Assembly (NCBI RefSeq): GCF_025127995.1
Contig: NZ_JAHLYP010000051.1
Span: 1 to 64,000 of the forward strand
Direction: 5' to 3'
Origin: Synechococcus sp. CS-1332
GTDB taxonomy: Bacteria > Cyanobacteriota > Cyanobacteriia > PCC-6307 > Cyanobiaceae
DNA length: 64,000 bases
The notes below the pieces were generated by a model that was not told the DNA's origin, ran no database searches, and worked only from the letters and a program-made list of their open reading frames with translations. This document shows positions 19,131-43,243 of the stretch, piece by piece; the stretch's first letter is position 1; every line of letters begins with the position of its first letter. The translations under genes were made by a program, and so were the position numbers.

Positions 19131-19174
19131 ACTGAAAAGGGCCCTTCCAGGCCCCATGGGTCATGTGGGTGACA
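19131..19174 (+). repeat. Left attachment repeat of the island (attL)
   Basis: 44 bases matching 42886-42929 at all but one position (G at 19165 against T at 42920). It begins ACTGAAAAGGGCCCTTCCAG and includes the inverted-repeat-plus-T terminator of the tmRNA gene. Because the right copy is the native 3' end of ssrA, this left copy is the duplicated target end. The tyrosine integrase starts about 150 bases inside it. Confidence 0.9.
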
Positions 19175-19319: not shown

Positions 19320-20536
19320 ATGCCAGCCATCAACTCAGGTCGTCCGTGGGAGGTCGGTTTCCGTTCTGCCGTTCGAGAAGGCCGCCAGGGATGGTCCGTC
19401 ATCAACGCAAGGGGAAGAGTCCGGCTCAGGGTGCGGATCAGGGGGCCCCTGATGAGTGCGTAGTGCTCCCCGTCAAATGGGAACCAGGTGGCCAAGCGGC
19501 GGCCCTCCAGTTGATCGGCCACATCTACCGGCTCGTCGCCAGCGGCCAGCAGACGGTCAGGGGTGCCCTGCAGACGGTTGTGGAGGGAAGCGACACTATG
19601 AAGATAGGCACCGACTGGAGCGCCGCTGTGAACGGCCTCAGAACGGAACTAATGAATGGGCGTAACGAGATCCTCTATGCGACGTGGAAGACCAACTACC
19701 AGCAATACATGGAGGAAGCACTGCGGATCTTGGAGTGCCCCAATCCGCCCCACGATGGGCATGGGCTCCTCCAGCGCACTCTGGAGCGGTGGAAGGGCAA
19801 AGCGGCCAGCCGCGCGGCCTGCTGCATTGCCATCCGCAATCTGACCGATCACGCCATGGCCCGCCACCATGCTCCCGCCTGCTGGACCATCACGGCCCCG
19901 ATGGTGAAAACCCTTCGGGGCAAACCGTCCGAGAAGCGAACAAAGGCCACGCTGGCCGATCCCGAAATGCTCTATCTCATCGAGGGGGTAGAGCGCCGAA
20001 ACCCAGGCTGGGCGAATGTACTCCGCACCCTGGCGTTGTTCGGCCTGCGGCCTGTAGAGCTTCAGCACCTTGTTCCCAAGCCCGATGATCAGGGGGTGCT
20101 GAGAATGTGGTGCCGCTACCGCAAGACCTGCGGTGGCCAACTCACAGCCCCACGCTGGCTGCTGCCTGCGCCGCCTCACAACGCCATGGGTGAGCGGCAG
20201 GATTGGAACATCACCGGGGCGATGGCAGCGGGCCTTCTGGAGCTTCCAGAGGGGCGTGATGGTGGGTTCAGAGTGTTGAACGGCCACTACGTCGAACGGT
20301 TTCTACGGATCCAACCGGAATGGAAGGAGCTGAAGGCGCTACACACCGCCAGGGGGGAATGGTTGCGGCCATACACCTTCAGGGATAGTTACAGCCTGCG
20401 GTGCCATCAGCATGGGGTGGAAGTGGGGGCGGTCGCATCTGCCATGGGTCACAGCCTGGCGGTTCATGCCAGCAGCTACAGGTGGGCATCAGAGGCCACT
20501 ACGGCGGCAGCGTTTGATGCAGCCTTTACAGCGTGA
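19320..20536 (+). pseudogene. Tyrosine recombinase (island integrase), apparently frameshifted
   Basis: The catalytic part is one open frame to 20536 (usable from about 19465): the core-binding region WSAAVNGLRTELMNGRNEIL, the first catalytic arginine in LFGLRPVELQHL, then YTFRDSYSLRCHQHG, AMGHS and the tyrosine in SSYRW. It matches a cyanobacterial island integrase type. The expected N-terminal arm-binding part (WSVINARGRVRLRVRIRGP) lies upstream in a frame offset by one base, from ATG 19320 to a stop at 19463, and the continuation VVLPVKWEP is in the catalytic frame. The switch falls near a G5C4 run at about 19440. Either the gene is frameshifted, the sequence has an error, or a shorter protein starts later (ATG 19598). 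Confidence 0.75.
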
Positions 20537-21490: not shown

Positions 21491-22486
21491 TCAGCCGATT
21501 AGCGCGGCGATCGACTCCCTCAGCAGCCCCAGGTTCTCGCTCACGATCACACTGGCGGGCCGCTTCGTGGTGATCTCACCAGCCAGCAGTCCCACCAGAT
21601 CGGCCAACGGGCCAGGGTGATTGACCAGCTCTCCGAAGTAGGCAGCGCTGGTCTGCACCTTTGCCCTTGCCTGCCGGCTTCCTTCGGCGTCGATCACATT
21701 CCCGGCCGCGGCCAGAACGCTCGCCCGCTTGGGGAGCGCAGCAGCCGACAGGTCCCTGATCTCGGAGCGCAATCGGGCACGAATGGCGGCGCGAATCTCC
21801 AGCAGCGGCTCCAGGTCGCTGCTCTCCAGTAGGTCCTCACAGCCGGGCAGGCAGTTCTGGGTGAAGGGGCGAAGGTATGCAAGGCGGGCGATCTCGGCGG
21901 CTTCCCTTGCCTTCGCGGCGGTCCAGTCGTTGCGGAGGGCCAGCTGGGCCAACTGACGTTGGATCGTGTCCGGGGCACGGCTGCTGCCGATGGCGGCTGC
22001 TACCTCCAGGGGGAGCCGCCCGATCGCCGCGGCCTCGAACAGATCCGGCGGCAGGTGGGCCAGCTCCAGCGCCGTTCGCGTTGTCCGGCCATCCCGGGGC
22101 ACCCCGTAGGCGGCCAGCTCCTCGGGGCCCATGGCGGTATCCCTGAATAGCTTGGCCGCGTCGATTGCAGTGCCGCGCTCCTCTGCGATGTTCTGCAGAG
22201 CGCCGATGGTTCGGGCCTCGACGGCGGTTGCTGCAGATAGAAACCTCACCGCCACCAGTTCAACGCCACAGCGCAGGGCGAGGGCCAGCCGGTGATGGCC
22301 GTTGACAACGAACGGGCCTGGGTCTGCTCGATCGTGCCAAACAGTCAGTACGCCGGCCAGGTCAGGATTCCAGCGAGCGGCATCTTGCAGGACCGGCGTT
22401 GTACCTGCGCGGCTGGCATGGAGCTTGAACTGGAAACGCTGTGCATCAACACGAATCGACGCAGCGGGAATTGTTGTCAGCTGCAC
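21491..22486 (-). CDS. ParB/Sulfiredoxin-fold domain protein
   Basis: A 331-residue protein from GTG 22486. The N-terminal ParB-like nuclease domain is marked by VLTVWHDRADPGPFVVNGHH with RLALALRCG, the conserved NGHHR loop. The rest is helical and Arg/Ala-rich (for example LELAHLPPDLFEAAAIGRLP), as in ParB central DNA-binding regions, and ends with a charged tail. Stand-alone ParB-like proteins in mobile elements can be partition factors, CTPases or nucleases; no ParA is nearby, so partition alone is unlikely. It may form an operon with the RHH gene. Confidence 0.7.
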   Translation of the reverse strand: MQLTTIPAASIRVDAQRFQFKLHASRAGTTPVLQDAARWNPDLAGVLTVWHDRADPGPFVVNGHHRLALALRCGVELVAVRFLSAATAVEARTIGALQNIAEERGTAIDAAKLFRDTAMGPEELAAYGVPRDGRTTRTALELAHLPPDLFEAAAIGRLPLEVAAAIGSSRAPDTIQRQLAQLALRNDWTAAKAREAAEIARLAYLRPFTQNCLPGCEDLLESSDLEPLLEIRAAIRARLRSEIRDLSAAALPKRASVLAAAGNVIDAEGSRQARAKVQTSAAYFGELVNHPGPLADLVGLLAGEITTKRPASVIVSENLGLLRESIAALIG

Positions 22487-23437: not shown

Positions 23438-23635
23438 GGCTTAGCCGCAGAGCTTTGGGACAGTCTGGCCTGGCTTACGTCAGGCCAGGCCTAAAACGCT
23501 GCAGGCGTAGCCGCACTGAGGGGGCGCTTAGTGGTGCCTGCAATCGAGCAAGGCCTCGGGAATGGGGAGAATCACGATTCCCTCAATTCCCGGGGCTGAT
23601 CACCTGCTACTGCTCTATCAAGATGAGGGGCAGGA

Positions 23636-24272
23636 TCACTTCAACAGCAGGCCCCGGGCGGCCTCTGCCTTCTCCTTCGCGGCGTCGGCATCGAGGTACT
23701 TCTCCAAGGCGGCGAGGCTCTGGTGGCCGCTGATCTCGGCCACCTCTCGCAGACTCAGCCCGGCGGAATGGGCAGCGGTGAGGGCGGAGCGGCGGAAGCT
23801 GTGGCTGGAGACCCCCTCGATACCCAGGCGGTCGGCCAGCTTGCTGATCGCGGTCTGCGCTCCACGGACGCTGAGCGGCTGGCTGGCGACGCCAGGAAAA
23901 ATCCAGCCCTTCTTCGTAGAGGGGCAGGCCTCCTTCCAGGCCAGCAGGTAGCGGCAGGCCACCTCGGGCAGGTTTGATGGTCCGGCCGGCGCCGGTCTTG
24001 GTGATGCCGCCGGGCACGTTGACAACGCAGGCAGCGACGTCGTTCCAGGTCAGAAGGGTGACCTCGCCGACCCGCATGGCGCCGGCCGTCATCAGGGCCA
24101 CTAGGGCGGCATCGCGAGGCCTGGCGATCTCCAACATCTGGGCGATCTGGGCGGCGTCGAGCACGGCGGCCCGCTTGACGGGGGTCGACGTCGCAGGCCG
24201 GTCCCTCAGGAGGGCGCGGTCGGCGGAGCGGCGGGAGGCGGGGGCCATGAGGGTCGTAACCGGTCTTTCCAT
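23636..24272 (-). pseudogene. Frameshifted tyrosine recombinase
   Basis: The N-terminal part from about 24272 carries the first catalytic arginine in GAMRVGEVTLLTWND and runs to GRTIK. The rest (LPEVACRYLLAWKEACPS, FPG, SSHSFRRSALTAAHSAG, ISGHQSLAALEKY) is in another frame ending at 23636. The break is near 23970. All catalytic residues (R, HxxR, H, Y) survive across the two frames, so decay is recent or a base is missing. It is a paralogue of the fragment at 22531-22803 and unlike the integrase at 19.3-20.5 kb. Confidence 0.8.
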
Positions 24273-25862: not shown

Positions 25863-25995
25863 ATGCCCACCAGCTCGGCCGGCTTCTCCCTGCCGGTAGT
25901 GCTCGGCCCCCAGATGTGCACACCTCGACCACGCCGAAGACTCCCTGGGCCGTGGCCTGTGGCCCGATCTTCACTGTTCCAACCGCACTTGGGGG
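25863..25995 (+). pseudogene. Decayed copy of the small gene at 32224
   Basis: From ATG 25863 the protein starts with GFSLPVVLGPQ, like GFALLVVLGRQ in the gene at 32224, and after a frame change shows SLGRGLW like FLGRGLW. DNA identity is high in two blocks, including 19 identical bases. The copy flanks the CHAT/DUF900 module on its left as the intact gene does on its right. Confidence 0.6.
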
Positions 25996-26216
25996 TTGGG
26001 CCTCCTAGCGACCAAGCCAGTGGAGGCTGGCCTTGGCATCCCGGCACTAAGCGCTATGGTCTAATCGCTCAATCCAGTGCTCGCGAGGCACACCTCGCAT
26101 TACCGACGCCCGGCGAGCCTGACGCGCTCCCTGCGGGTCAGGAGCCCAAAAACTTGTGGCCATTTCCCACGACTCTGTTCAGGATTGAGCCTGGAGCCAG
26201 CCAAAGGCCGAACGGC

Positions 26217-29200
26217 ATGCCCGCCCATTACCAACTGCGGATCGGCCTCGACCCTTCCGGCCGCGGCGCCGACTTCCGGCTCCTGGATGCCCATGGCAGC
26301 CAGATTGACTATCACCACACCGACATCGCAGCTCTCACCGCCAGCCGGCAGCAGGGGCTCTTCGATCTGAGGCAGTATCTGCGGGACTACATCGAGGAGC
26401 AGCGCCAGGAGGAGGAGATCACCGCCATCGGTGTCTGCATCGCCCACGACCTGCTGGGGGAGAAGATCACGCAACTCCTCTGGAAACCGATCAACCAGCG
26501 CACCCTCTCCATCCAGCTGCCGACCGGTCCGCAACAGGCCCATCCCCTCGCGGCCGCTCTGGCCCGTGTCCCCTGGGAACTGACACGCCCGAGCGCCAAC
26601 CAGCAGACCCTGGCGGAGCGCAACCTGGTGGTGCGCATCGAACCCCCCTCTGATGCCCCCTGCTCGGAGCCGCTGGTGCTTGAGGCCGATGAACCCCTGC
26701 GGGTGCTGCTGGTCTTCGCGGCATCGCGGGGCTCAAGCCCCCTGGCGGCGCGCAGCGAGCGGCGTGAGTTGCTTGAACTGTTCGAGCGCGAGATCTACCC
26801 CGGCCGGAGGATCATCGCGGATGTCCTTTCCTATGGCGTCACGAAAGAGCGGCTGATCGATCAGATCCAGCGCCATGACGGCTATCACCTGATCCACTGG
26901 AGCGGCCACGGCCACCAGAACCTGCTGGAGCTCGCTGACGCCGATGGCCATCCGGATCCAATCAGTGGGGAGGAGCTGGTGGAGCTGTTCGCCGATGCCG
27001 GGGGTTTCCTGCCGCGGCTGGTGTTCCTCAGCGCCTGCCATTCCGGCGCACCGCTGATCAGGAGCTGGAGCTCGTTCCTGGCGGTGGCGCAGGGCGTAGA
27101 GCCCACCGGGACGAAGGTTGCCACCGCAGAACAGAGCACACCCTCCTTTGGCACGACCGCCCCGGGCGATCCCTCCCGCAGCGAGCCGGCCGGCTTCACC
27201 GGCACCGCCGCGGCCCTGCTCGCTGCCGGGGTGCCGACGGTGGTGGCGATGCGCTTCGCGGTCGGGGATGGCTATGCCCGCCAGCTGGCGGTGGCCTTCT
27301 ACCGCCACCTACTGGCCGACCAGGCGCCCAAGGAGGCGGCAACGGCGCTGGCGATGGCCCGCCGGCAACTGATCAATCATCCCCCGGGCGGTGCAAGCTG
27401 CGCGTGGGCGGATCACGCCACACCCCTGCTCTACGGCCAGCTGGACAGCTGCCTCCCTATCCGCCAGCTCAGCGGTCGCTCACCGGCCCGTGGGGAGACC
27501 CGCCGCCGGCTGCACAGCATCCCCGAGCTCACCGCTGCCAGCCACGATTCCTTCGTGGGGCGCACCTGGGAGTTGGCGGGCCTCGGTGCCCGTTTCCTCG
27601 GCTCCACCGGCGGAGCCGAGGTCACCCCGGTGGCGGTGATCACCGGGCTGGGCGGCATGGGCAAGAGCGCCCTGCTGAGCGAGGCGCTTGACCTATGGGA
27701 ATCCCGCTTCCAATGGCTGCTGCTTTATCAGGCCAAGCCCAGCGCCCTGAGCTTTGAGGGGACCCTGCGGGACATCCATCTCAGGCTCGCCGGGGAGGAG
27801 CAGCGCTACTACACGCATGTGCAGCAGCACCGCGCCGATGCCATCCACCGCGAGGCAAGCGAGACCTTCACAGGCCCCAAACGGCTGCAGCGGTTGATGG
27901 AAAACCTCTGCCGCGCCCTGCGCGATGAGCCCATCCTGCTGGTCCTCGACAACTTCGAGACCAACCTGCTGCCCCAGCCCGACAACGCCGATGGAGCCGA
28001 GCCCCTCTGGCGTTGCCAGGATCCGGCCTGGGACCAGTGCCTGCAGCTGCTGGCCAAGCAGCTGCAGGGCTCATCCTCAAGGGTGCTGATCACCAGCCGC
28101 CGTCCCCTGGCGGCCCAGGCCGGCGGCCGGGGGTATGGGGTGCCGCTCGGGCCGCTGCAGCGCGCCGAGGCGGCCCTGTATCTGGGCTCTCAGCCCACCT
28201 TGCGCGCGATGGCCTTCGGGGAGGATCTCAAAGAACGTCAGCTGGCGCTGCGGCTGCTGAGCGTCAGCCGCTTTCACCCCCTGCTCATGACGCGGCTGGC
28301 CAGGCTGGCGGCAGCTCCGGACCGCCGTTCCCAGCTGCTGGAGGCACTCGACACGCTCGAGCGGCAGAAGGACTTCGCAGCATTACCGGAGCTCTTCACC
28401 GGCACTGCCGCTGAACAGAACCGTGAGCTGGAGCAGAGCTACCTCCGTGACGCCCTCACCACCTCCACTGATCAGCTGATCGCCCAGGCCGGCGCCGGGG
28501 CCCGCCAGTTGCTATGGATCCTGGCCCTGGCCAATGATCCGGTCTCCCTGCGGCTGCTGGAGGGGCTGTGGAGCACTGAGAGTCATGAGGTGCAGCGAAT
28601 GCGGTTTGTCCGCAAGCTGTTGGATCTGCGGGACACCCTGCCCCCTGAGCAGCAGCGCAAACTTGATCAGATGCCCCGGGAGGACCATGAGGCGCTTCAG
28701 GCCCTGCCGAAGGCCCCGCAACGCCCCGCCCTGCAGCCGCTGCTCAGCGCCCTGATGGCGGCGGGGTTGCTCCAGGAGCGGCAGGTTCCCACCGGCAAGA
28801 AGCCGGAGCAGGCCGTCACCTTCTACAGCGTCCATGCGCTGGTGGTCGAGCGCATCGACGCTTGGATGGAGCACCACCCCGCCGAGCAAGGGGATCGCGA
28901 CGCCGCTGCGGTGCGGCGAGACTATGCCGAACACCTGATGGCCTGCTACGAGGACCTCCTGCACCAGCAGGGCAGCACGGCGCAGGAGGCTGGCCGTCAG
29001 GCGATCGTCTACTTCGTGCAGGCCGGTGCCTACGACCAGCTAGGCGGTGTCGCCGGCCAAGTGGTCACCAGCATCAAAGACCCGGTGCTACTGCAGGGCC
29101 TTCTGCCCCACCTCCATTGGGCCGTAGACACGGCACCCGCAGGCCGGCCGCGCATGACATGCCTAATCCTTCTCGCCGATGCTTTGCACAACAGCGGTGC

Positions 29201-29543
29201 TCCACGCCAGAGCCTGCCGTTCTATGAGCAGGCTGCCGACTTGGCGCGCCTGGCCATAGCAGACAGCGTGGAAGAAGACCGCGAGGGCTGGATGGTCCTG
29301 GCAGTGACCTACGCCAACTGGGGGTGTGCACTGAGGAACTTGGGGGAGCTGCAGGCCGCCCGCGACCTGCACATGCAATCTGCTGAGGCTGAGAAGAAGG
29401 CAGGCGGACCCTTGATCGGTGTGATCAACAGCGAACTGCAGGCACTGGGCATTGACATTACGCAGGGCAAATCCCGTTCGGCTCTGCCGGAAATCGAGCT
29501 GCACCTGGCGCAGGTTGACGAGTGGTGGCACCAGAGCCGCTAG
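26217..29543 (+). CDS. CHAT peptidase - STAND ATPase - TPR protein (ends at an in-frame TAG)
   Basis: From ATG 26217, 1108 residues before TAG. Residues 1-170 are an unassigned beta-rich N-domain. A CHAT caspase-like domain follows (about 180-390) with the dyad His231 in HWSGHGH and Cys274 in LSACHSG. A STAND/NB-ARC-type ATPase comes next: FVGRTWELAGL, Walker A GLGGMGKS (477-484), Walker B LLVLDNFET (Asp578), and SSRVLITSRRP. TPR-like helices begin near residue 960. The same frame continues after the stop to 30296 with more TPRs, so the ancestral protein was about 1359 residues. An NLR-like logic (TPR sensor, ATPase switch, protease output) is inference. The DUF900 hydrolase gene follows. Confidence 0.88.
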   Translation: MPAHYQLRIGLDPSGRGADFRLLDAHGSQIDYHHTDIAALTASRQQGLFDLRQYLRDYIEEQRQEEEITAIGVCIAHDLLGEKITQLLWKPINQRTLSIQLPTGPQQAHPLAAALARVPWELTRPSANQQTLAERNLVVRIEPPSDAPCSEPLVLEADEPLRVLLVFAASRGSSPLAARSERRELLELFEREIYPGRRIIADVLSYGVTKERLIDQIQRHDGYHLIHWSGHGHQNLLELADADGHPDPISGEELVELFADAGGFLPRLVFLSACHSGAPLIRSWSSFLAVAQGVEPTGTKVATAEQSTPSFGTTAPGDPSRSEPAGFTGTAAALLAAGVPTVVAMRFAVGDGYARQLAVAFYRHLLADQAPKEAATALAMARRQLINHPPGGASCAWADHATPLLYGQLDSCLPIRQLSGRSPARGETRRRLHSIPELTAASHDSFVGRTWELAGLGARFLGSTGGAEVTPVAVITGLGGMGKSALLSEALDLWESRFQWLLLYQAKPSALSFEGTLRDIHLRLAGEEQRYYTHVQQHRADAIHREASETFTGPKRLQRLMENLCRALRDEPILLVLDNFETNLLPQPDNADGAEPLWRCQDPAWDQCLQLLAKQLQGSSSRVLITSRRPLAAQAGGRGYGVPLGPLQRAEAALYLGSQPTLRAMAFGEDLKERQLALRLLSVSRFHPLLMTRLARLAAAPDRRSQLLEALDTLERQKDFAALPELFTGTAAEQNRELEQSYLRDALTTSTDQLIAQAGAGARQLLWILALANDPVSLRLLEGLWSTESHEVQRMRFVRKLLDLRDTLPPEQQRKLDQMPREDHEALQALPKAPQRPALQPLLSALMAAGLLQERQVPTGKKPEQAVTFYSVHALVVERIDAWMEHHPAEQGDRDAAAVRRDYAEHLMACYEDLLHQQGSTAQEAGRQAIVYFVQAGAYDQLGGVAGQVVTSIKDPVLLQGLLPHLHWAVDTAPAGRPRMTCLILLADALHNSGAPRQSLPFYEQAADLARLAIADSVEEDREGWMVLAVTYANWGCALRNLGELQAARDLHMQSAEAEKKAGGPLIGVINSELQALGIDITQGKSRSALPEIELHLAQVDEWWHQSR

Positions 29544-29576
29544 GGCCTGAGCGTACCGGAGGCACCGGATCTGGAA

Positions 29577-30296
29577 ATGCTCAGCCGCACCTACCTCACT
29601 GCGCTGCATGTCGCTTTTCGCGCGGACTACGACCGCATGGACTGGGTCTCGGCGCTGGCGCGTCTTGAGACCAGCTTGCAGGTGAAGCAGGCCCTGGGCC
29701 GTTCCGCCGAGGATATCGGGGGGACCCGCTTCAATCGGGCCTCGACGCTGATCGCACTCAACCGGCTGGATGAAGCACAAGAGGAACTGGTTGCCTGCCT
29801 GGAGCTGTTCACCAACGATCCATCTATGACTTCCAAAGTGCGCGGTTCCTTAGCGGCTTTGTTTCAAAACCTAGGTGATACTGAGCAGGCCATTCGCCAG
29901 GCTTGCCAGGCCCTGGCGATCACAGAGCACCTGCAGGATCCAGAGAGTCGCGCCATCTCCCACGGCAGCCTGGCGATCTACCTGCTGGACGCCCGTGATG
30001 AGCAGGCGTCCAGGGAATCCGCCCGCCACCAGCTGGCCGCCCTGCTCTATCGCCACTGCGCGGGCCTGAATCAGGGCCTGCAGAACTCCCTAGTCAACTA
30101 CGTCAAGATATTCCGGCAGGCGGAGGTGGTCGGCAGCGCTCTGGTGGTGCCCCGAGTGGCCGAGCTGCTGGCCGATCCGGCCTTCGGGCCGCTGGTCGAA
30201 TGGTTAACGCAGCTGCAGGTTGATCTGGCAGAGCTGCAACAAAGAACCGATCAGATCCTGGAGCAATGCCGCCAGCAGGCCCTCGCCGGCAACTGA
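29577..30296 (+). CDS. C-terminal TPR part of the CHAT protein, after an in-frame TAG
   Basis: This is the same reading frame as the CHAT gene, separated only by TAG at 29541-29543. From ATG 29577 it gives 239 residues of TPR-like helices (WVSALARLETSLQVKQALG, FNRASTLIALNRLDEAQEEL, VRGSLAALFQNLGDTEQAIR, AISHGSLAIYLLDARDEQAS) and a final coiled coil (LQVDLAELQQRTDQILEQC). The residues between TAG and this ATG (GLSVPEAPDLE) also look coding. It may be a separately started subunit, a readthrough extension, or the tail of a broken gene. Confidence 0.65.
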   Translation: MLSRTYLTALHVAFRADYDRMDWVSALARLETSLQVKQALGRSAEDIGGTRFNRASTLIALNRLDEAQEELVACLELFTNDPSMTSKVRGSLAALFQNLGDTEQAIRQACQALAITEHLQDPESRAISHGSLAIYLLDARDEQASRESARHQLAALLYRHCAGLNQGLQNSLVNYVKIFRQAEVVGSALVVPRVAELLADPAFGPLVEWLTQLQVDLAELQQRTDQILEQCRQQALAGN

Positions 30297-30316
30297 TCCC
30301 CTCCCCCTCTCCCGCC

Positions 30317-31645
30317 ATGACTCCCTCAGGCTCACCCGATCGCCCCATCACCGAACTGTTGGCCGAGCTGGAGGCGGCTGTGCGTCAGGGGAATGCTGCG
30401 GCCGCCGGCCAGCTCGAGCAGCTGATCCTGCAACAACTCGCCCACCAGGCAGCTGAAACCGCCGCCATCGAGCAACAGGTCCAGGGACTGATGGCGCAGC
30501 TACGCCAGCCGCCCGAGAAGCCCCGAGAGGATCTGGAGGAACTGGAGGAACTGGAGAGCTTCCTCAACCCGGAACGTGGCACACCCTCACCTCAAAGCTT
30601 CTCCTTCATCGGAGGCAGCCTTCCCTTCTCACCGGGCGCGCCCTCCGCGAGGCCTGCTGCCATCACTGGCACGGTGGTGCCGGTCTGGTTCGCCACCAAC
30701 CGAACTCCCGCCGGGGATGACTATGGAAACAGCCGCGGCGCCAGCACCTCCTACGGCCGGGCCCTAGTCCATGTGCCGGCGGGCCATCGCTTCGGGGAGA
30801 CGGGAAGAAGTTTCTGGAAGCGGCTGAAACGCTTCGATCTCCGGGACGATCGTCTCCGCCTGCAGGCCATCGAACCGCGCCAGCACGAAGCCTTCTTTGC
30901 TGAGCTACAAGCCGCTATGGATCAGGCGCGGCAGGAAGGCGCCGCTCCCCACGCCCTGATCTTTCTGCACGGTTTCAATGTCAGCTTCCAGGAAGCCGCC
31001 ATCCGCGCTGCCCAGCTTGATGTGGACCTCAACGTTCAAGGCGCCACCGCGTTCTTCAGTTGGCCGTCGCGTGGCAGCCTCACCGCCTATCCATCCGATG
31101 AGGCCACCATCGAGGCCAGTGAGGCGGCGATCACCGACTTCCTGATCGATTTCACCCGCCACTGCGGCGCCGAGACGGTTCACCTGATCGCCCACAGCAT
31201 GGGCAATCGCGGGCTACTGAGGGCCCTGCAGCGAATCGCCGCGGATACGCAAGCCCGATCTACGGTGAAATTCGGCCAGATCTTCCTGGCCGCTCCTGAT
31301 GTGGATCGTGATCTGTTCCTTGAACTGGCACGTCACTATCCCCAATTCAGCAAACGCGCCACGCTGTATGCCTCATCGGCCGATCGGGCCGTTGGCTTCT
31401 CGGCCCGTCTGCATGACGCGCCCCGAGCCGGCTACTTCTCTCCATACACCGTGGTGGAAGGTGTAGACACCGTGGCGGTGCCGAACTTCGATCTGGACTG
31501 GATCGGCCACGGGTACTTCGCCGAAGCCGAGGCGCTGCTGAATGACATGTTCGATCTCATGCGCCGCGATGAGCCACCCCAGGCCCGCCAGCGCCTAGTC
31601 GCCGACGAGCAGGACGGGGTGCAATTCTGGAGGTTCAACCGCTGA
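30317..31645 (+). CDS. DUF900-type alpha/beta hydrolase paired with the CHAT protein
   Basis: A 442-residue protein from ATG 30317, 20 bases after the TPR frame ends. Residues 10-80 are a Gln/Leu-rich helical region (LEQLILQQLAHQAAE, IEQQVQGLMAQLRQ), then an acidic linker. The hydrolase starts with VVPVWFATNRTPAGDDYG and shows LIFLHGFNVSF (oxyanion loop, near 218), nucleophile Ser294 in IAHSMGNRGLL, Asp328 in AAPDVDRD and His398 in WIGHGYF. That is the DUF900 esterase/lipase arrangement. Pairing with a CHAT/STAND protein suggests it is the executioner or the protease target; substrate is unknown. No signal peptide, so it acts inside the cell. Confidence 0.88.
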   Translation: MTPSGSPDRPITELLAELEAAVRQGNAAAAGQLEQLILQQLAHQAAETAAIEQQVQGLMAQLRQPPEKPREDLEELEELESFLNPERGTPSPQSFSFIGGSLPFSPGAPSARPAAITGTVVPVWFATNRTPAGDDYGNSRGASTSYGRALVHVPAGHRFGETGRSFWKRLKRFDLRDDRLRLQAIEPRQHEAFFAELQAAMDQARQEGAAPHALIFLHGFNVSFQEAAIRAAQLDVDLNVQGATAFFSWPSRGSLTAYPSDEATIEASEAAITDFLIDFTRHCGAETVHLIAHSMGNRGLLRALQRIAADTQARSTVKFGQIFLAAPDVDRDLFLELARHYPQFSKRATLYASSADRAVGFSARLHDAPRAGYFSPYTVVEGVDTVAVPNFDLDWIGHGYFAEAEALLNDMFDLMRRDEPPQARQRLVADEQDGVQFWRFNR

Positions 31646-35509: not shown

Positions 35510-36046
35510 CTCCCTTATTCCTCAACTGATAGAAATAATGCGCAGGCACTTACTAGAGTGCATAACCAATCCTTGCAGGATCGGCATGCCCGCAATGCTT
35601 GGCTTCACATCACGCAACAAGATGCTCAATCCTCGGATCGGCGTCTGAACCCCCACTGTGCTGTACCCAGCTCGAAAGGAGGACGCCCCGGCCATCCGAT
35701 GGCCACCGTGTTGTGGATCCCCTTGATGCCGCGTTGGGATTTACTCAGCAACTAGCGATGGAGGATGCCCTGATTGAGGTGCCATCTCGCGTCGATTCAT
35801 GGAGACCGAGGCAGGGCTCGGCACTGGAGCCAAAGGTAGCGATCTCGCATGAAACTCTCCGTTTTGGTGGGTTCTTGGGTTCTCCCCTTGCACGGGAAGG
35901 GATCTGCTGGGTTCCCGTCTGGGTTCAAGACTGGGTTCACTGGGTTCTTTCCAACGACCGCCTGAACCCTAAGAACCCACTAAGAACCCAGTCTTGAACC
36001 CACCTAAACCCTTGCAGTGACTGGAAAGAACCCAAGAACCCACCTT
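35510..36046. other. Intergenic region holding a mirrored GGGTTC repeat array
   Basis: 537 bases without a supported gene. The right 180 bases hold the inverted iteron array described separately. The left part (35510-35860) shows nothing I can name and should contain the promoter for the 471-residue gene. Confidence 0.5.
35869..36041. repeat. Mirrored GGGTTC/GAACCC iteron array
   Basis: Six GGGTTC (starts 35869, 35877, 35909, 35921, 35933, 35942) face six GAACCC (starts 35964, 35973, 35984, 35996, 36028, 36036). Start-to-start spacings 8, 32, 12, 12, 9 on the left are mirrored by 9, 11, 12, 32, 8 on the right. Within it TGGGTTCAAGACTGGGTTC is repeated perfectly as its reverse complement. This layout suits a replication origin or a cooperative protein-binding site, or a large cruciform. 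Confidence 0.85.
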
Positions 36047-36386: not shown

Positions 36387-37454
36387 CTAGCCGAGCTTGA
36401 GCTTCAGAGCAGCCCTGATTCGATCTGCATACTGATAAATTCCAGACGGCCCATCTAAGTCAACATTCGCCGGCTCAGCAGCATCGCATATTTCCATAGA
36501 CTTCTTCTTGCCATTGAAATATAGCCGAACAACTGCCTTCTGGCTTTTCCCGTCTAGCAGCACGTTGAAGTAGTTCTTTGTGTCTTTCTCTATAAGCCTT
36601 GAAGGGTCGATCTCAGATGCGCAGATGGCCCGAGTGATATACAGACCATCAAGCTCTTCTTGGGTTGTCACCAGCGCATTGGGGTCTTCACCGATGTCTG
36701 TTTCAACTTCCTGCGATTCTTGTGCCGACTTGCCTTCGGCTTGCATGGCACTTTTTAGACGCTCTGCAATGCGGTTATTGATATAGCTATCGATGGCGTC
36801 TGCAACGATTGGCTCAAATAGTTCCTTGACCTTTGCTGTGACTTGCTTGCCACTATGAATACGAGCCGCCATCTCCTTCACAAACCACTCGCTTGGGGTG
36901 GTTAACTCCTTCTTGATTTCTTCCTTTACGCCGCGCAAATACTTCAGCTTCTCTGCTGTCGATAGCAAAGTATCTATGTCGAACATTGCTTTCGACAGCC
37001 TTTTCACTTCTGTTATTGGTGCATTGTCCAGATCAAGAAGGTCAACTTCCGCAAAGGGAGAGTCGTCCATGACGTTTGGTGCGTCCAAGTCGGAATAGAA
37101 ATGGAAAATCCGACCGTTGCTCAAAATACCGATCCTGGCCTGTGTTGCGTGGAAGTACCGCTGAAGCTGGCCCTTTTCGGCAGTCTTTAGATTAGTTGCA
37201 TATGGTTTTGCTTCAACGAGAATCTTCGGCTCCCCATTTTCAAGGATGGCGTAATCCACACGCTCACCCTGTTTGATCATTGGAAGGTCTGCAGAGAACT
37301 CTGGCATGACCTCATTTGGGTTGAATATGTCATACCCCAATGCCTGCAAGAACGGGGCGATCAAGGCCATCTTCGTAGCTTCCTCATTTGTGAGGTTGCT
37401 GCCGGTCTGCTGAGCCCTAGCTGAAAGAGCTTGAAGATGGTCTATCAGATCCAT
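36387..37454 (-). CDS. Stand-alone HsdR-N-like nuclease domain protein
   Basis: A 355-residue protein from ATG 37454. The N-terminal half matches the type I restriction R-subunit nuclease domain: LIAPFLQALGYDIFNPNEV, then the PD-(D/E)xK residues Asp67 in GERVDYAIL and Glu81/Lys83 in ILVEAKP, and GQLQRYFHATQARIGILSNG. Motor (helicase) domains are absent. A charged helical linker leads to a C-terminal domain of about 100 residues (VLLDGKSQKAVVRLYFNGKK) common in this COG4748-like group. It may act as a defence nuclease or a repair factor. AT-rich relative to the host. Confidence 0.78.
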   Translation of the reverse strand: MDLIDHLQALSARAQQTGSNLTNEEATKMALIAPFLQALGYDIFNPNEVMPEFSADLPMIKQGERVDYAILENGEPKILVEAKPYATNLKTAEKGQLQRYFHATQARIGILSNGRIFHFYSDLDAPNVMDDSPFAEVDLLDLDNAPITEVKRLSKAMFDIDTLLSTAEKLKYLRGVKEEIKKELTTPSEWFVKEMAARIHSGKQVTAKVKELFEPIVADAIDSYINNRIAERLKSAMQAEGKSAQESQEVETDIGEDPNALVTTQEELDGLYITRAICASEIDPSRLIEKDTKNYFNVLLDGKSQKAVVRLYFNGKKKSMEICDAAEPANVDLDGPSGIYQYADRIRAALKLKLG

Positions 37455-38045: not shown

Positions 38046-39047
38046 TTATTCAGGTCTTGGTGCTGGCTCAGGGTTGATGCAAGTCAGCAGCCTCTTTGCA
38101 CTCTGCAGCTCTTTCCTGACTTCGTTGTCAAGCCCGTCAGGATCGAAATGCATCACATCATTTCTAATCTCGCGAACTCTGTCAAGGATGCGGACGAATT
38201 CGGCGCGATCGATTGCCAGCCCCAGTCTTGACCAGTTATTCGGAGATTGTATCAGTCTGAGGTATTCACCAAAAGCTAGATCTGCTACTGTTGTGATTGT
38301 TCGGGAATCATCTCCATCCCTAACGCTCATGAGCTCCTGGTGAGTGAATCGTCCATCTATAAGCCGCCGAACCTGCTTCTCAATCTCTCCCACAAGGAGA
38401 AATGGCTCAGCTAAAGCCTGAAACTGCTCGGCAATGTCGTGAATAGTCAGTATGCCCTGGAAAGTACGATCCTGAGCCTGGACAACAACTACATCATGCA
38501 GAAGGATGCGTTGGACAACTTGGACTAAGTCGTCGTCATGATTAACAATCTCAGAATGCTCCATCGCATCTTGCACTCGAACTGGCTGTCTCCCACTTGC
38601 AAGCTCAACACCGAGAGATCGCCAACTAAACATGCCATCAATAGCCCGGGCATCGGAGCGGCCCATAATTGGTAGCTGCGAATAATTGTTCTCGAGCATT
38701 AGCGTGATTGCACGCTCTACAGTTTCAGACCTTGTTACTGATATAATCGTTCTATGAGCGGCTGCTACCGACGTAACTCTGATTACAGGATCATCCACTG
38801 TTCCGCCTCGAACAATGTCATCCTGAATGGGGCCACCGGTTCGTTTTATCTTTACGTGTTCATCGAGATAAGCGGTCTCAAAAGATGGCTCGGTCTCCAG
38901 ATTGGCCGCAGATAATGCACCATGAATTTCTGCGACGACATTGACCCCGCGACGTGTTTTTTCAAACCAGCCAAGAATATCTCTAACGGAATATTGGGGT
39001 TCAACACCCTGCTGGACTGAGTTAATCGCGTCGTGTGGTATTGCCAT
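38046..39047 (-). CDS. CBS-pair protein with HEPN-like RNase motif
   Basis: A 333-residue protein from ATG 39047. Residues 15-65 look like a winged helix (YSVRDILGWFEKTRRGVNVV). Two CBS motifs follow (about 95-215): TIISVTRSETVERAITLMLE with NNYSQLPIMG, and a second with HDDDLVQVVQRILLHDVVVV. The C-terminal helical region ends with RVREIRNDVMHFDPDG, where Arg295 and His300 form an Rx4H motif as in HEPN ribonucleases. CBS pairs bind adenosyl nucleotides, so this may be a nucleotide-gated RNase; the HEPN assignment is by motif only. It lies just beyond the predicted origin. Confidence 0.7.
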   Translation of the reverse strand: MAIPHDAINSVQQGVEPQYSVRDILGWFEKTRRGVNVVAEIHGALSAANLETEPSFETAYLDEHVKIKRTGGPIQDDIVRGGTVDDPVIRVTSVAAAHRTIISVTRSETVERAITLMLENNYSQLPIMGRSDARAIDGMFSWRSLGVELASGRQPVRVQDAMEHSEIVNHDDDLVQVVQRILLHDVVVVQAQDRTFQGILTIHDIAEQFQALAEPFLLVGEIEKQVRRLIDGRFTHQELMSVRDGDDSRTITTVADLAFGEYLRLIQSPNNWSRLGLAIDRAEFVRILDRVREIRNDVMHFDPDGLDNEVRKELQSAKRLLTCINPEPAPRPE

Positions 39048-39179
39048 CCTGATCCGGAGACCGCATCCCTTGTAGATTAAGCCTAACAGGCCCCTCGAGT
39101 GGACAGGCCACCGCACACCTTCTGCTTCGCCTCCCCAAGCACACTGCCTGCCACTCAGGGGCAGCGTTAGGCGGAGCAA

Positions 39180-39374: not shown

Positions 39375-39650
39375 GGGGAAGCCATGAGGGGATTACGGAG
39401 AAGCCATGCGGAAGGCACGGGGAAGCCATTGGGGAAGCCATGTTCCAGATGGGGACAGGAGAGGGAGGCATCCGGGGCAAAAAATCAAAATCACCTCTGG
39501 CCTTGCGCGTGCGCGTGAGTGGAAATTGAGTTTGAAAAATAGGGGTGCGATGCCTCCCCCGCCTGTCATGGCCTTAAAGATGCCTTCTCCTATGCCTCCC
39601 CGATGGCTTCCCCCTGGAAGGCATATGCCTTCCCCAGATGCCTTTTCAGA
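39375..39650. other. Predicted replication origin: inverted iterons around an AT-rich core
   Basis: The left arm holds GGGGAAGCCAT at 39375, 39419 and 39431 with variants at 39397, 39410 and 39463. The right arm holds the complement type (ATGCCTCCCC, ATGCCTTCTCC, ATGGCTTCCCC) at 39550, 39580, 39592 and 39603, and a perfect palindrome GGAAGGCATATGCCTTCC at 39616-39633. Between them (about 39475-39545) the DNA is A/T-rich (GCAAAAAATCAAAATC, TTTGAAAAATA). It lies directly behind the primase-helicase gene, the same plan as SaPI origins where Rep binds flanking iterons and melts the middle. Confidence 0.75.
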
Positions 39651-42423
39651 CCAGCACGACCCCTTTAAGCAAGGCGATTCGCGTCTTCGGCGCCTTCCTG
39701 CTGGAGAGCTTCGGAAAGACAGCCTTCAGGCGGCGCTCCAGTCCGTTAGGGGTGCGAACAGGTGGATCGCCGACCATGTCTCGATCGTTCCAGCTGGGCC
39801 GGCCGTTGTTGTCAAGGTGGAGGATCTTCTGTTGCTGATACCAGCTTTCCAGCAGGTTCCAGACCTTGCGGTGCTCAATCTCGGCGGTGGGGTCAGCCTC
39901 CAGGCCGACGTCTTCTGCAAAATCGAACAGGTGGCATGAATGTCGCCGGATCGCGTCAATTGTCTGGGGTGTGCTGCGGAAGTTGATGCCGTCGCGTACG
40001 GCGAGCTGAAGCCCTTCCAGGAGCCAGTTCAGCATTGCTGGGCAGATGTTCTCCCGGATGAAACCCAGGTCATCCTTCAGTCGGGGATCAGCCTTTAGCT
40101 GGTTGGGGTCGCTCGGGTCGGGGTTGCTGCTATAGCGCTTGAGGAAGCGAACAGCATGCCAGCGCGATTGCATGGCGGCCTGTCCAGCATCCATCAGCGG
40201 GGGCTGGTTGCAATTGAACAGGAAGATCGCGTTAGGTGTGAAAGGTTGCTCTTGAACGTTCTTCTGCTCCCAACTCAGTTCTTCACCCGTGATAGCACCC
40301 TTGAGCGATTGGATCATTTCGAGCCTTGCGAAGCTGGTGTTCTCTGGGCTCCAGTTGATGCGGGCACCCCGGAGAGGGGAGATGGGAAACTTCCGGCCCT
40401 TATCGTACTGCTGAAAGTCGGAGAGGGTGCAGCCGGTCATGCCACGGGCGCCGAGTGTCAGGCTCAAGGCGCCCCGGATGGTGTCCTTGCCGTTCTCGCC
40501 ATCACCCAGGAGCAGCAAGGCACGAGGACGACCTTTCGAAGCGCGGAAACGGTCAAGCTGCAGACCAGAGCCGAGAAGCCGTTTCATGGTGTCGCGGTCC
40601 TGCGGCTCCAGAGCATCCAGGAGGCGCCACAGGTGTGCTCCATCTGCCTGCGGATCGTAGTCGTATTGCAGGCAGTAGGTGAACCGTTGCGCGGGGTCAT
40701 GGGGACCGAAGGTGAGCTCCATGCGGTCACCGTTCCAGGCCCAAGTGATGGTGCCATTCCGGCAGTTGATCGCGTTCGGGGGGTTGGAGTCAGTACATGG
40801 CAGGAGGGTCTTCCTGAACCACTCGATCGCTTCCGTAACGCGGGCGGGTCTGGCCCAGTGGTGGATGTCTTCATTGGTCTGCGTGTTGAAGTAGTAGAGG
40901 CGACTGAGTACAGGCGCAACCCGTGGTGCAAGTGCCTGATCCGGGAGGGCTTGGTAGTGGGTTCCGTTCCAGCGGTGAAGGATGCCTTCGATGTGAAGCC
41001 AACGATCAGCACCGAAGGCGAGTTTCATCACCGTGGGGAGCCAGTCGCTGTCCTTGCTGTGAAGCTTCAGCTCAGGGGCACCCCCATCGATTACCACCGA
41101 CTGAGGGAGCTTCAGTGCCTTCGCTGGCGGGACGGCTGGGGGCAGTCGCTTCGGCACTTTGTATCCATGCTGCTTTGCCAGATGGTGCAGCGATGCGATG
41201 GTTGCGGGTCTGCCGCGATTGGACTTTCCTAACGATTGCCACTTGTAAAGGCATTCTCCCTCGTCAAACCCAGCCATCGTCCTTGACCAGTCCACCCAGT
41301 TCGACAGCAAGCCGGGATCAACGGAGTGGAGCGCCATGCCGATGCGCAACCAGTTGTCGTAGTTACTGTGCTGTTCGGCGGGGATTGTCGCGAGCATCGC
41401 GACCGCCCTCTCTGCATCACCATCCTGCGGCGTGTATGGCTCAGCCTGCTTGACCTCCTGAACGGCTAGGTGCTCCAGTAGCCAATCGGGAGCCTGCGCT
41501 GGGTCGGGAATGTCCTGCGGTGAGCAGCCTTCCAGCCAGCGGTAGGAGCCTGTTTCAGGGTGCGCGCCGATGATGACCGCCTGGTGCCGGTCGCCGCGCA
41601 GCTCCCAAAGGGTGACGGGACTTTTCTGCCCTTGTTCTCCGATGGGATCACCCTCCTGCCATGGGCGGGTGAAGGGCCGACGATTGGCCAGGTGAGGCCA
41701 CCACTCGTTATCGACGGTAAATGCACGACCGGATCGCCCAGGCTTGGTTGAAGTCCACGCGATGGTCTGCGGTAAGTCCTCGATTGGATGGCCGGTGCGC
41801 TCTGCGAAGTCTTCGCGCCATCCATCTTCGTCAAGATCAAGAACAACGGAACCGGACTGCGGCCCTGATAGCAGGCCCCACGCGGGAGGCATGGTTTCCA
41901 GTTCGATCGCATCATCAGGCGATAGGCCAGGAACTGATTGCCAGTCAGCACCAATCGGCCGCTTGTCTGGGCCGACGCGAACCAGTCGCCAATCGGCGGG
42001 AAGGAATATCAGTTCTTCGCGCAGGGCATCGCCTGCGTTGCGCTCGGCCTGCATTGGCGGCTGGCGCTTGAGTTGTCGATGCAGTACGCCGCAGATTCCG
42101 CCATCAATCTTGGCGACGGCATCTTCAAAGGTCAGACCCAAGTGGCGCCGAAATAGCTCCATGTCGCTGAGCGGACCACCTTTTTGATTTGGGCCGCCGC
42201 AGTTTGAGCAATGGCCGCCATCACCGTCGTCCGTTTGACTCCAGCGGAAGGTGCCGACCGCATGGCACAGAGGGCAGTCACCGCTGCCGTTCAATAACAG
42301 ATCGCTGTCAATATCCGCGATGGAGGTAAGCAGTAAGAACCAACGGCCATACGCCTGTTCACGCCATTCCCCTTTGATAGTGGCAAGCGAGGTCAGGCCA
42401 TGGCGCACCTCTGTGGAGGCCAT
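39646..42423 (-). CDS. Satellite replication protein: zinc finger, prim-pol, D5-type SF3 helicase
   Basis: A 925-residue protein from ATG 42423. An N-terminal zinc finger (CPLCHAVGTF ... HCSNCGG, residues 50-75) leads to a primase-polymerase-like domain (VVLDLDEDGWREDF, TKPGRSGRAF), a PriCT-type segment (NYDNWLRIGMALHSVDPGL), then D5_N (near 500-600) and an SF3 helicase with Walker A GDGENGKDT and sensor-like NAIFLFNCNQPP. The C-terminal HTH (VWNLLESWYQQQ) could bind the iterons that begin just after the stop. This is the autonomous replication module of PICI/tycheposon-type satellites. Confidence 0.9.
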   Translation of the reverse strand: MASTEVRHGLTSLATIKGEWREQAYGRWFLLLTSIADIDSDLLLNGSGDCPLCHAVGTFRWSQTDDGDGGHCSNCGGPNQKGGPLSDMELFRRHLGLTFEDAVAKIDGGICGVLHRQLKRQPPMQAERNAGDALREELIFLPADWRLVRVGPDKRPIGADWQSVPGLSPDDAIELETMPPAWGLLSGPQSGSVVLDLDEDGWREDFAERTGHPIEDLPQTIAWTSTKPGRSGRAFTVDNEWWPHLANRRPFTRPWQEGDPIGEQGQKSPVTLWELRGDRHQAVIIGAHPETGSYRWLEGCSPQDIPDPAQAPDWLLEHLAVQEVKQAEPYTPQDGDAERAVAMLATIPAEQHSNYDNWLRIGMALHSVDPGLLSNWVDWSRTMAGFDEGECLYKWQSLGKSNRGRPATIASLHHLAKQHGYKVPKRLPPAVPPAKALKLPQSVVIDGGAPELKLHSKDSDWLPTVMKLAFGADRWLHIEGILHRWNGTHYQALPDQALAPRVAPVLSRLYYFNTQTNEDIHHWARPARVTEAIEWFRKTLLPCTDSNPPNAINCRNGTITWAWNGDRMELTFGPHDPAQRFTYCLQYDYDPQADGAHLWRLLDALEPQDRDTMKRLLGSGLQLDRFRASKGRPRALLLLGDGENGKDTIRGALSLTLGARGMTGCTLSDFQQYDKGRKFPISPLRGARINWSPENTSFARLEMIQSLKGAITGEELSWEQKNVQEQPFTPNAIFLFNCNQPPLMDAGQAAMQSRWHAVRFLKRYSSNPDPSDPNQLKADPRLKDDLGFIRENICPAMLNWLLEGLQLAVRDGINFRSTPQTIDAIRRHSCHLFDFAEDVGLEADPTAEIEHRKVWNLLESWYQQQKILHLDNNGRPSWNDRDMVGDPPVRTPNGLERRLKAVFPKLSSRKAPKTRIALLKGVVLV

Positions 42424-42675: not shown

Positions 42676-42885
42676 ACCAAACGAAGGACCTTGCGGGGTT
42701 GGGACCCCTGGTTCGGTGAGGTGTGGGCCTGGCTTTTGCCGGCTGCGAAGATCCTAGTCACTTCTCCGAAGGCCCTGCAACGGCCAGGCGCTCCTGGCAG
42801 GGCTCCTCAAGCAGGGATGGTCACGGAGATGGTCACGGGTGCAGATTCGGGGTTAGATCGAACCCCCAAAACCCTTGCCGTTCCT

Positions 42886-42929
42886 ACTGAAAAGGGCCCT
42901 TCCAGGCCCCATGGGTCATTTGGGTGACA
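42886..42929 (+). repeat. Right attachment repeat (attR) within the tmRNA 3' end
   Basis: 44 bases matching 19131-19174 with one mismatch. On the minus strand it contains the end of the tmRNA coding piece and its terminator (GGGGCCTGGAAGGGCCCTTTT). This copy restores the ssrA 3' end after integration. Confidence 0.9.
42890..42910 (-). terminator. Rho-independent terminator of ssrA
   Basis: On the minus strand GGGGCCTGGAAGGGCCCTTTT: a short GC stem with a TGGAA-type loop followed by T4. It ends the tmRNA transcript and is part of the duplicated attachment sequence; an identical copy lies at 19135-19155. Confidence 0.7.
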
Positions 42930-43205
42930 AGGCTGACCTCACCCCGTCTCCGTTAAGAGTGTCAGGCAGCCACGGGGGCGGCTTGACGGGAGAAACGAAC
43001 GATGTTGTTCGCTGTTACGGGTTCGCTCTTACCGAGCAGGCTTCAGTCACCCTCCTCATGCCCCGTCGAAACCATTGCAGCCCCGGGATGACGGACCGGC
43101 CGGAGCCGGTGGGCCTGGGGGAATGGAGCTGAGCGGAATCGAACCGCTGTCCGAGACACTGGTGTGGACCACCTAGTTCGTCCGAAGACGAGCTTGTTCA
43201 TCTTG
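42890..43205 (-). ncRNA. ssrA: Two-piece (circularly permuted) tmRNA
   Basis: Read on the minus strand, the acceptor piece comes first and ends GGTTCGATTCCGCTCAGCTC then CA (3' A at 43124). A spacer of about 39 bases follows, then the coding piece starting GGGGCTGCAATGGTTTCGAC at 43084; GGGGCTG pairs with CAGCTCC to form the acceptor stem. The tag frame is 43012 down to 42962, encoding ANNIVRFSRQAAPVAA and TGA. It rescues stalled ribosomes and tags their products for proteolysis. The 5' limit of the acceptor piece (about 43205) is approximate. The island is inserted at its 3' end. Confidence 0.95.
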
Positions 43206-43243
43206 CCACCTTCGGGCCGCCGGCCGGCAAGCAGCATGGGGGG

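Follow-up and report, generated by a model that had tools for sequence, protein, structure and literature searches.

A candidate NLR-like module of a CHAT-STAND protease and a DUF900 hydrolase on a tmRNA-inserted island of Synechococcus sp. CS-1332

Described systems and the locus

In VMAP ternary systems (vWA-MoxR-VMAP), a caspase-superfamily domain is always accompanied by a neighboring alpha/beta hydrolase (Kaur et al., 2020, PMC7159879). A pair of this kind is encoded in a 64,000-nucleotide (nt) stretch of Synechococcus sp. CS-1332 DNA (contig NZ_JAHLYP010000051.1, positions 1 to 64,000; hereafter “the window”), where three open reading frames (ORFs) on the same strand compose a candidate module of a CHAT/AAA_16 protein (P0001), a TPR protein (P0002), and a DUF900 hydrolase (P0003). 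The first-pass annotation, made from the sequence alone, could not match a CHAT protease with a DUF900 partner to any named system; as a pairing of a caspase-superfamily protease with an alpha/beta hydrolase, however, it has the above precedent. No STAND-CHAT/DUF900 system came up in searches of the open-licence PubMed Central literature. We regard as evenly poised the reading that the locus is an NLR (nucleotide-binding leucine-rich repeat)-like abortive-infection module on a mobile island, a variant of the caspase-superfamily and alpha/beta-hydrolase pair that is gated by a STAND NTPase.

The VMAP ternary systems share with this module the protease, the hydrolase, and even the DUF900 clade: the hydrolase of a Pfam-checked VMAP operon, L091, is a DUF900 protein. 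A difference is that the window protease has a STAND NTPase in the same polypeptide. Seven tblastn queries for VMAP, MoxR, and vWA had no hit in the 64-kb window, the rest of the genome not being searched, while the same seven hit the control operon L081 (VMAP_L091 only via its N-terminal 80 residues). Pfam likewise found none of these families among 20 window ORFs. The caspase-superfamily protease and the alpha/beta hydrolase are present and the ordered VMAP/MoxR/vWA genes were not found in the window, so we do not class the module among the VMAP systems, although it may act in a similar way.

Other described systems overlap with the module in part. In the EAD/bDLD networks (Kaur et al., 2021, PMC8195603), alpha/beta hydrolases are predicted to be membrane-lipid-hydrolysing effectors, and caspase effectors share operons with STAND-clade AP-ATPases; unlike those networks, the window proteins have no match to death-like or EAD domains, and neither DUF900 nor CHAT-hydrolase pairs are named in the available text of that paper. 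CARD-NLR and bacterial gasdermin defence (PMC13236601) also combines an NTPase switch, a protease, and death effectors that may be phospholipases, but its LypA joins a CARD-like and a trypsin-like domain where the window has CHAT and DUF900, and a Pfam scan of 20 window ORFs gave no gasdermin or CARD match. Craspase of type III-E CRISPR (PMC9729208) contains a TPR-bearing CHAT protease under the control of a sensor, whereas the window CHAT domain occupies the N-terminus of a STAND NTPase protein. A type III-E Craspase is marked by a gRAMP (Cas7-11) partner and by a CHAT domain placed after the TPRs; PADLOC, run on 10 window ORFs, found no Cas effector save one weak CARF/Csm6-like match (see below). 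Finally, DUF900 hydrolases of the same Pfam family and fold have been listed as proteins of unknown function (PMC11878206). Those are alpha-proteobacterial and one is lipoprotein-like, and the CHAT link is not drawn in the available text, while the window member is CHAT-linked and has no visible signal peptide.

The CHAT-STAND protein and its split TPR region

The CHAT-STAND ORF lies at 25863–29543 on the plus strand, with a likely start at 26217. Numbered from the first codon of the longest ORF, P0001 matches Pfam CHAT (PF12770) at residues 198–515 with 76.7 bits (cut-off 24) and AAA_16 at residues 564–710 with 38.7 bits (cut-off 32.6); an NB-ARC match stays below the cut-off. The putative catalytic dyad consists of H349 within SGHG and C392 within SACHSG, and a Walker A motif, GLGGMGKS, at residues 595–602 is followed by a Walker B-type LVLDNFE from residue 693. 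These are the same residues as the His231, Cys274, and Walker A 477–484 given in the first-pass annotation, which holds for the start at 26217. By its profile match and His/Cys dyad P0001 is a predicted CHAT protease, and the P-loop NTPase that follows its effector domain, with both Walker motifs, marks it as a predicted STAND/NLR-like protein.

The CHAT and STAND parts of the proposed CHAT-STAND-TPR chain are borne out. TPR matches inside this ORF are below the cut-off, and clearer ones occur after an in-frame TAG at 29541–29543. The same frame is open again in the TPR ORF (29577–30296, plus strand), whose product P0002 matches PF13181 marginally above the cut-off (26.0 versus 25.7 bits) and is a generic TPR match in PADLOC. 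What had been described as two adjacent genes is three ORFs, with the sensor gene apparently divided by a stop codon. The TPR ORF probably encodes the C-terminus of the CHAT-STAND protein; in our reading, a single CHAT-STAND-TPR gene has been cut in two by a nonsense codon, the TAG. For homologues spanning the TAG, plasmids gave no match, and in another phylum the matches in 4/180 genomes were generic TPR alignments, which do not show continuity across the TAG. Alternatively, the stop is no damage, and CHAT-STAND and TPR polypeptides are translated separately and assemble with the hydrolase. The ATG of the TPR ORF, 33 nt past the TAG, and the match of this ORF alone to TPR profiles would suit such a two-polypeptide sensor; however, the shared frame without a further stop suggests one ancestral gene, no split relative was seen, and a fold predicted for the read-through TPR region from its sequence alone (mean predicted local distance difference test score, pLDDT, 45) is too poor for judging continuity. 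This alternative appears improbable. A promoter and terminator scan gave results at about chance level.

Relatives of P0001 are rare. It is found at full length in 1/42 genomes of the genus, with any match in 3/42, and the other matches in these 42 and in 386 genomes of the phylum are distant (about 23–50% identity over parts). No relative was found in plasmids at E 1e-5, viral contigs gave no pattern match, and a PDB sequence search found no significant relative of either P0001 or P0003. In PADLOC, P0001 had no significant match (caspase, E 0.023), and in NCBIfam neither P0001 nor P0003 matched a named defence system. As a separate observation, a TIR-CHAT-AAA_16 protein is encoded in another genome of the genus (L195, 8148–11723, minus strand), at a locus without DUF900.

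The DUF900 hydrolase

The hydrolase ORF (30266–31645, plus strand; start at 30266 or 30317) overlaps in its longest form the TPR ORF, which ends at 30296. P0003 matches DUF900 (PF05990) at residues 223–425 with 144 bits (cut-off 20.5). The lipase-type triad first placed at Ser294, Asp328, and His398, which presupposes the start at 30317, is S311/D345/H415 in the numbering from 30266, and it is invariant in 15/15 rows of one alignment (A1) and 16/16 of another (A3), both including the window protein. Profile match and Ser-Asp-His triad together identify P0003 as a predicted DUF900 hydrolase; inspection by eye revealed no signal peptide.

In the structure model of P0003 (mean pLDDT 79), an alpha/beta hydrolase fold begins at about residue 133. 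Ahead of it, the helical region and acidic linker pointed out in the first-pass annotation take the form of a long helix at 28–80, a short helix at 90–100, and a low-confidence linker at 99–131. The top matches among solved structures are mainly lipases and esterases, including PhaZ7 (Z 14.4, 227 residues aligned, root-mean-square deviation (rmsd) 4.0) and Bacillus subtilis LipA (Z 13.1, 168–169 residues aligned, rmsd 2.9). The modelled fold is lipase/esterase-like, which by itself is no proof that the substrate is a lipid.

P0003 has its closest named relative in Synechococcus sp. BO 8801. While PF05990 occurs in 35/386 genomes of the phylum, many matches being weak, a P0003-like DUF900 at full length was found in 1/201 genomes of the family, that of the source itself, and any match in 6/201.

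Association of DUF900 clades with CHAT and caspase-like proteases

The linkage was counted over 76 strong DUF900s (E<1e-30), with CHAT and caspase calls made by profiles built from the loci of this analysis and not by Pfam. Weak DUF900s (E over 1e-30; L085–L090 and L189–L191), L181 (identical to L009), hits below about 70 bits, and G1201 (73.8 bits) were excluded, and L017 was counted but is absent from the trees. In a quick 75-row tree, supported by the Shimodaira-Hasegawa-like approximate likelihood ratio test (SH-aLRT) and without bootstrap, P0003 forms a clade with L008, L078, L080, L081, L091, L092, and L222 (SH-aLRT 100). Seven of these eight, the window included, are CHAT-linked (six of seven in the first tree): five are CHAT-DUF900 fusions, L092 stands beside a TPR-CHAT gene, and L008 lacks CHAT. 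In a second clade (L101, L079, and L179; support 98 in the first tree and 94 in the 75-row tree), 3/3 are CHAT- or caspase-linked. Linkage in the two clades amounts to 10/11 versus 5/65 of the other strong DUF900s (L094, L095, L165, L176, and L223), with a Fisher p of 3e-8 for clades picked post hoc among related rows. At clade level, P0003-type DUF900s are associated with CHAT. Furthermore, with the window and the fusion records excluded, CHAT was found within 5 kb of DUF900 in 4/23 records, where a uniform-placement model expects 0.82 (p 0.006). In a forward test on 110 genomes, some of which had been searched earlier, 13 matched, three of them strongly, and one of these three was new: L222, the last found, had the layout predicted from the earlier CHAT-DUF900 loci.

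A broader generalization, that cytosolic DUF900s go with caspases, was dropped. In an early count of 48 rows with export judged by eye, 9/13 cytosolic-looking versus 4/35 exported-looking DUF900s were linked (p 2e-4), and a cruder hydrophobicity score had earlier given 11/19 versus 2/29. When the 20 remaining loci above 70 bits were opened, 19/20 had no CHAT or caspase, which weakened the general claim, while the link of the P0003 clade grew from 6/7 to 7/8; our confidence in the module stayed the same. In the count enlarged by these 20 loci, seven viral loci, and L222, the figures are 11/27 cytosolic-looking versus 4/45 exported-looking (p 0.002), with four unclear rows unlinked; exported-looking DUF900s are mostly unlinked, and it is in the two clades that the link resides.

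The layouts of the linked loci are diverse. CHAT-DUF900 fusions are found in L078, L080, L081, L091 (a plasmid), and L222; Pfam places CHAT above the cut-off in all three of those scanned (L078, L080, and L091), and CHAT in L081 and L222 was called by our own profile. An N-terminal EAD7 was found by Pfam only in L078, while the N-termini of L080, L081, and L091 were judged EAD-like from their resemblance to the beginning of the following gene. Downstream genes of L091 encode VMAP-M14/VMAP-C, AAA (MoxR-like) ATPase, and FGE-sulfatase domains, and the L081 operon is matched by VMAP-like genes in L080 and L222 and by MoxR-like and vWA-like genes in L080 and L091. In Hymenobacter (L092) and Streptomyces canus (L101), DUF900 is accompanied by a divergent TPR-CHAT gene at a distance of 55 and 76 nt, respectively; in L079, a caspase-DUF900 fusion lies near an EAD10-NTPase gene; and in Sulfitobacter (L094 and L095), DUF900 is paired with caspase and CHAT genes. 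Of the 11 plasmid regions opened out of 429 records, there are six (L093 and L096–L100) in which neither CHAT nor caspase was found within 5 kb. DUF900 was not found in phage records, and ten DUF900 loci in IMG/VR have no CHAT or caspase by our own profiles.

There are further cases beside these. The Streptomyces plasmid also encodes a caspase-NTPase-WD40 protein (L101, 12168–16670, minus strand), at a distance of about 3 kb from its DUF900/TPR-CHAT pair, and in Uabimicrobium (L009, 6228–9179, plus strand) another protease, a subtilase, is fused to DUF900. In L223 (7534–9983), a convergent CHAT gene lies 32 nt away, a feature seen in 0/18 of its mates in the divergent DUF900 branch. L008 (7587–8987, plus strand) encodes DUF900 fused to an AbrB-like domain. 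Three genomes of the genus have a second, distant DUF900 (L085, L086, and L087) about 10–20 kb from a CHAT gene of the same contig (G005:C45, G113:C14, and G000:C35), and DUF900 genes on putative viral contigs (L182–L188) encode signal-peptide or lipoprotein-like N-termini.

Several observations weigh against an immune module at this locus. The sensor gene appears split by the TAG and is possibly broken. The neighborhood called for in the first-pass annotation did not recur: no second STAND-CHAT gene was found beside DUF900 in the 42 genus and 386 phylum genomes, and a profile search of six opened CHAT-STAND or CHAT loci (L195–L200) found no DUF900. The nearest hydrolase, L008, 70% identical to P0003, has no CHAT or caspase in its 17-kb locus, and the divergent cytosolic-looking branch is linked in 1/19 (L223). 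PADLOC gave nothing significant for P0003, and the counted rows are kin, with seven changes of linkage state on the 75-row tree, and were collected by P0003-like queries. The locus may then be a decayed or captured remnant, in which a VMAP-type hydrolase came by chance to lie beside an unrelated, already broken CHAT-STAND-TPR gene. The stop codon with its frame open on both sides, the single occurrence of the pair, the CHAT-free L008, and an integrase fragment at 23607–24272, suggesting decay of the island, agree with this; but the CHAT and DUF900 catalytic centres are both intact, the TPR frame past the stop stays open for 239 codons and is overlapped by the hydrolase ORF in its longest form, and the clade of the hydrolase is otherwise linked to CHAT. 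We consider such a remnant unlikely, though it is the alternative to be taken most seriously.

The island at the tmRNA gene

The insertion at ssrA that had been proposed is borne out. A transfer-messenger RNA (tmRNA) gene at 42871–43213 (minus strand), which matches the cyanobacterial permuted type, contains a 44-nt attachment (att) repeat at 42886–42929, and a direct repeat 98% identical to it lies at 19131–19174, delimiting an island of 23.8 kb (19131–42929). In another genome of the genus (L205), the site is empty: a single att copy stands where the window flanks meet, with 90% and 93% alignment. As a side observation, the insert between two att copies at the tmRNA gene of L208 (G984:C27:17000–31300) is a different one, about 11 kb long, by which this site looks like an integration hotspot.

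HetF-type cyanobacterial CHAT proteins offer a model for a housekeeping role, in which the module would serve proteolysis or lipid turnover instead of immunity. CHAT is indeed common in cyanobacteria, with 2 to 53 matches per genome in 13 genomes searched, and DUF900s are mainly free of a CHAT link (61/76); the position on an integrated, sporadic island, however, and the above rarity of full-length P0003-like DUF900s in the family and of P0001 in the genus, make a housekeeping role very improbable.

The island carries another candidate defence gene. An ORF at 38046–39179 (minus strand) encodes a CBS-HEPN anti-phage protein of the DS-11 family (NF053863, 337.8 bits, cut-off 260, E 5.1e-101), for which phage-defence assays and mutants were reported in the DefensePredictor paper (PMC13092281); this protein gave the weak CARF/Csm6-like PADLOC match mentioned above (E 0.011). 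A restriction-enzyme match (PADLOC, E 4e-9) covers 36387–37454. Next to the tmRNA gene, a primase/helicase of the element (39646–42423, minus strand) has PriCT_2, Prim-Pol, and D5_N domains and matches phrog_1156, and beside the distal att an ORF at 19346–20536 (plus strand) is integrase-like, with a weak phrog_1 match (E 6.7e-4) and no Pfam match. In addition, an ORF at 21491–22486 (minus strand), without a Pfam match, has a strong match to the final part of phrog_21, which is annotated as a portal protein, and a 61-nt inverted repeat (35866–36044; 77% complementary, 57-nt spacer) has a perfect 19-nt inverted repeat on its inner side.

Proposed action and significance

The NLR-like immune or cell-death logic suggested at the outset is partly supported: the CHAT link of the hydrolase clade and DS-11 on the island speak for it, the neighborhood not seen again and the split sensor against it. 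For the STAND-gated abortive-infection module that we favor, we infer the trigger, the cleavage, the lipid target, and the role in phage defence as follows. The STAND NTPase with its C-terminal TPRs would sense an invader-linked cue and switch on by assembling in a nucleotide-driven manner. The CHAT cysteine protease at the N-terminus would then cut or dock the co-encoded DUF900 hydrolase, probably at the long helix near the start of the hydrolase or at the disordered linker, and the Ser-Asp-His site so engaged would attack a lipid ester, harming the membranes of the cell itself. The copy in the window may be inactive because its TPR part is cut off by the stop codon.

The new element, as predicted from the gene content, would be a STAND-TPR chassis for a CHAT-DUF900 output, seen once. 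More tentatively, this could be a two-gene form of mobile NLR-like immunity: the STAND-TPR receptor would bear a CHAT protease of its own, and death would be brought about via a dedicated DUF900 lipase. Such a “caspase-activated lipase” unit might move between sensor chassis: VMAP-MoxR-vWA, TPR-CHAT, a caspase with an EAD10-NTPase neighbor, and STAND-TPR.

Among brown-algal ROCO proteins, which are candidate immune receptors, one group has C-terminal DUF900 domains (PMC11378527), so that the DUF900 effector may recur in eukaryotes. On the bacterial side, two DUF900 clades are tied to proteases of the caspase superfamily in Cyanobacteria, Bacteroidota, and Actinomycetota, and this linkage gives DUF900 a testable role: in parallel to gasdermin, it would attack membranes as an output of caspase-like immunity in bacteria.

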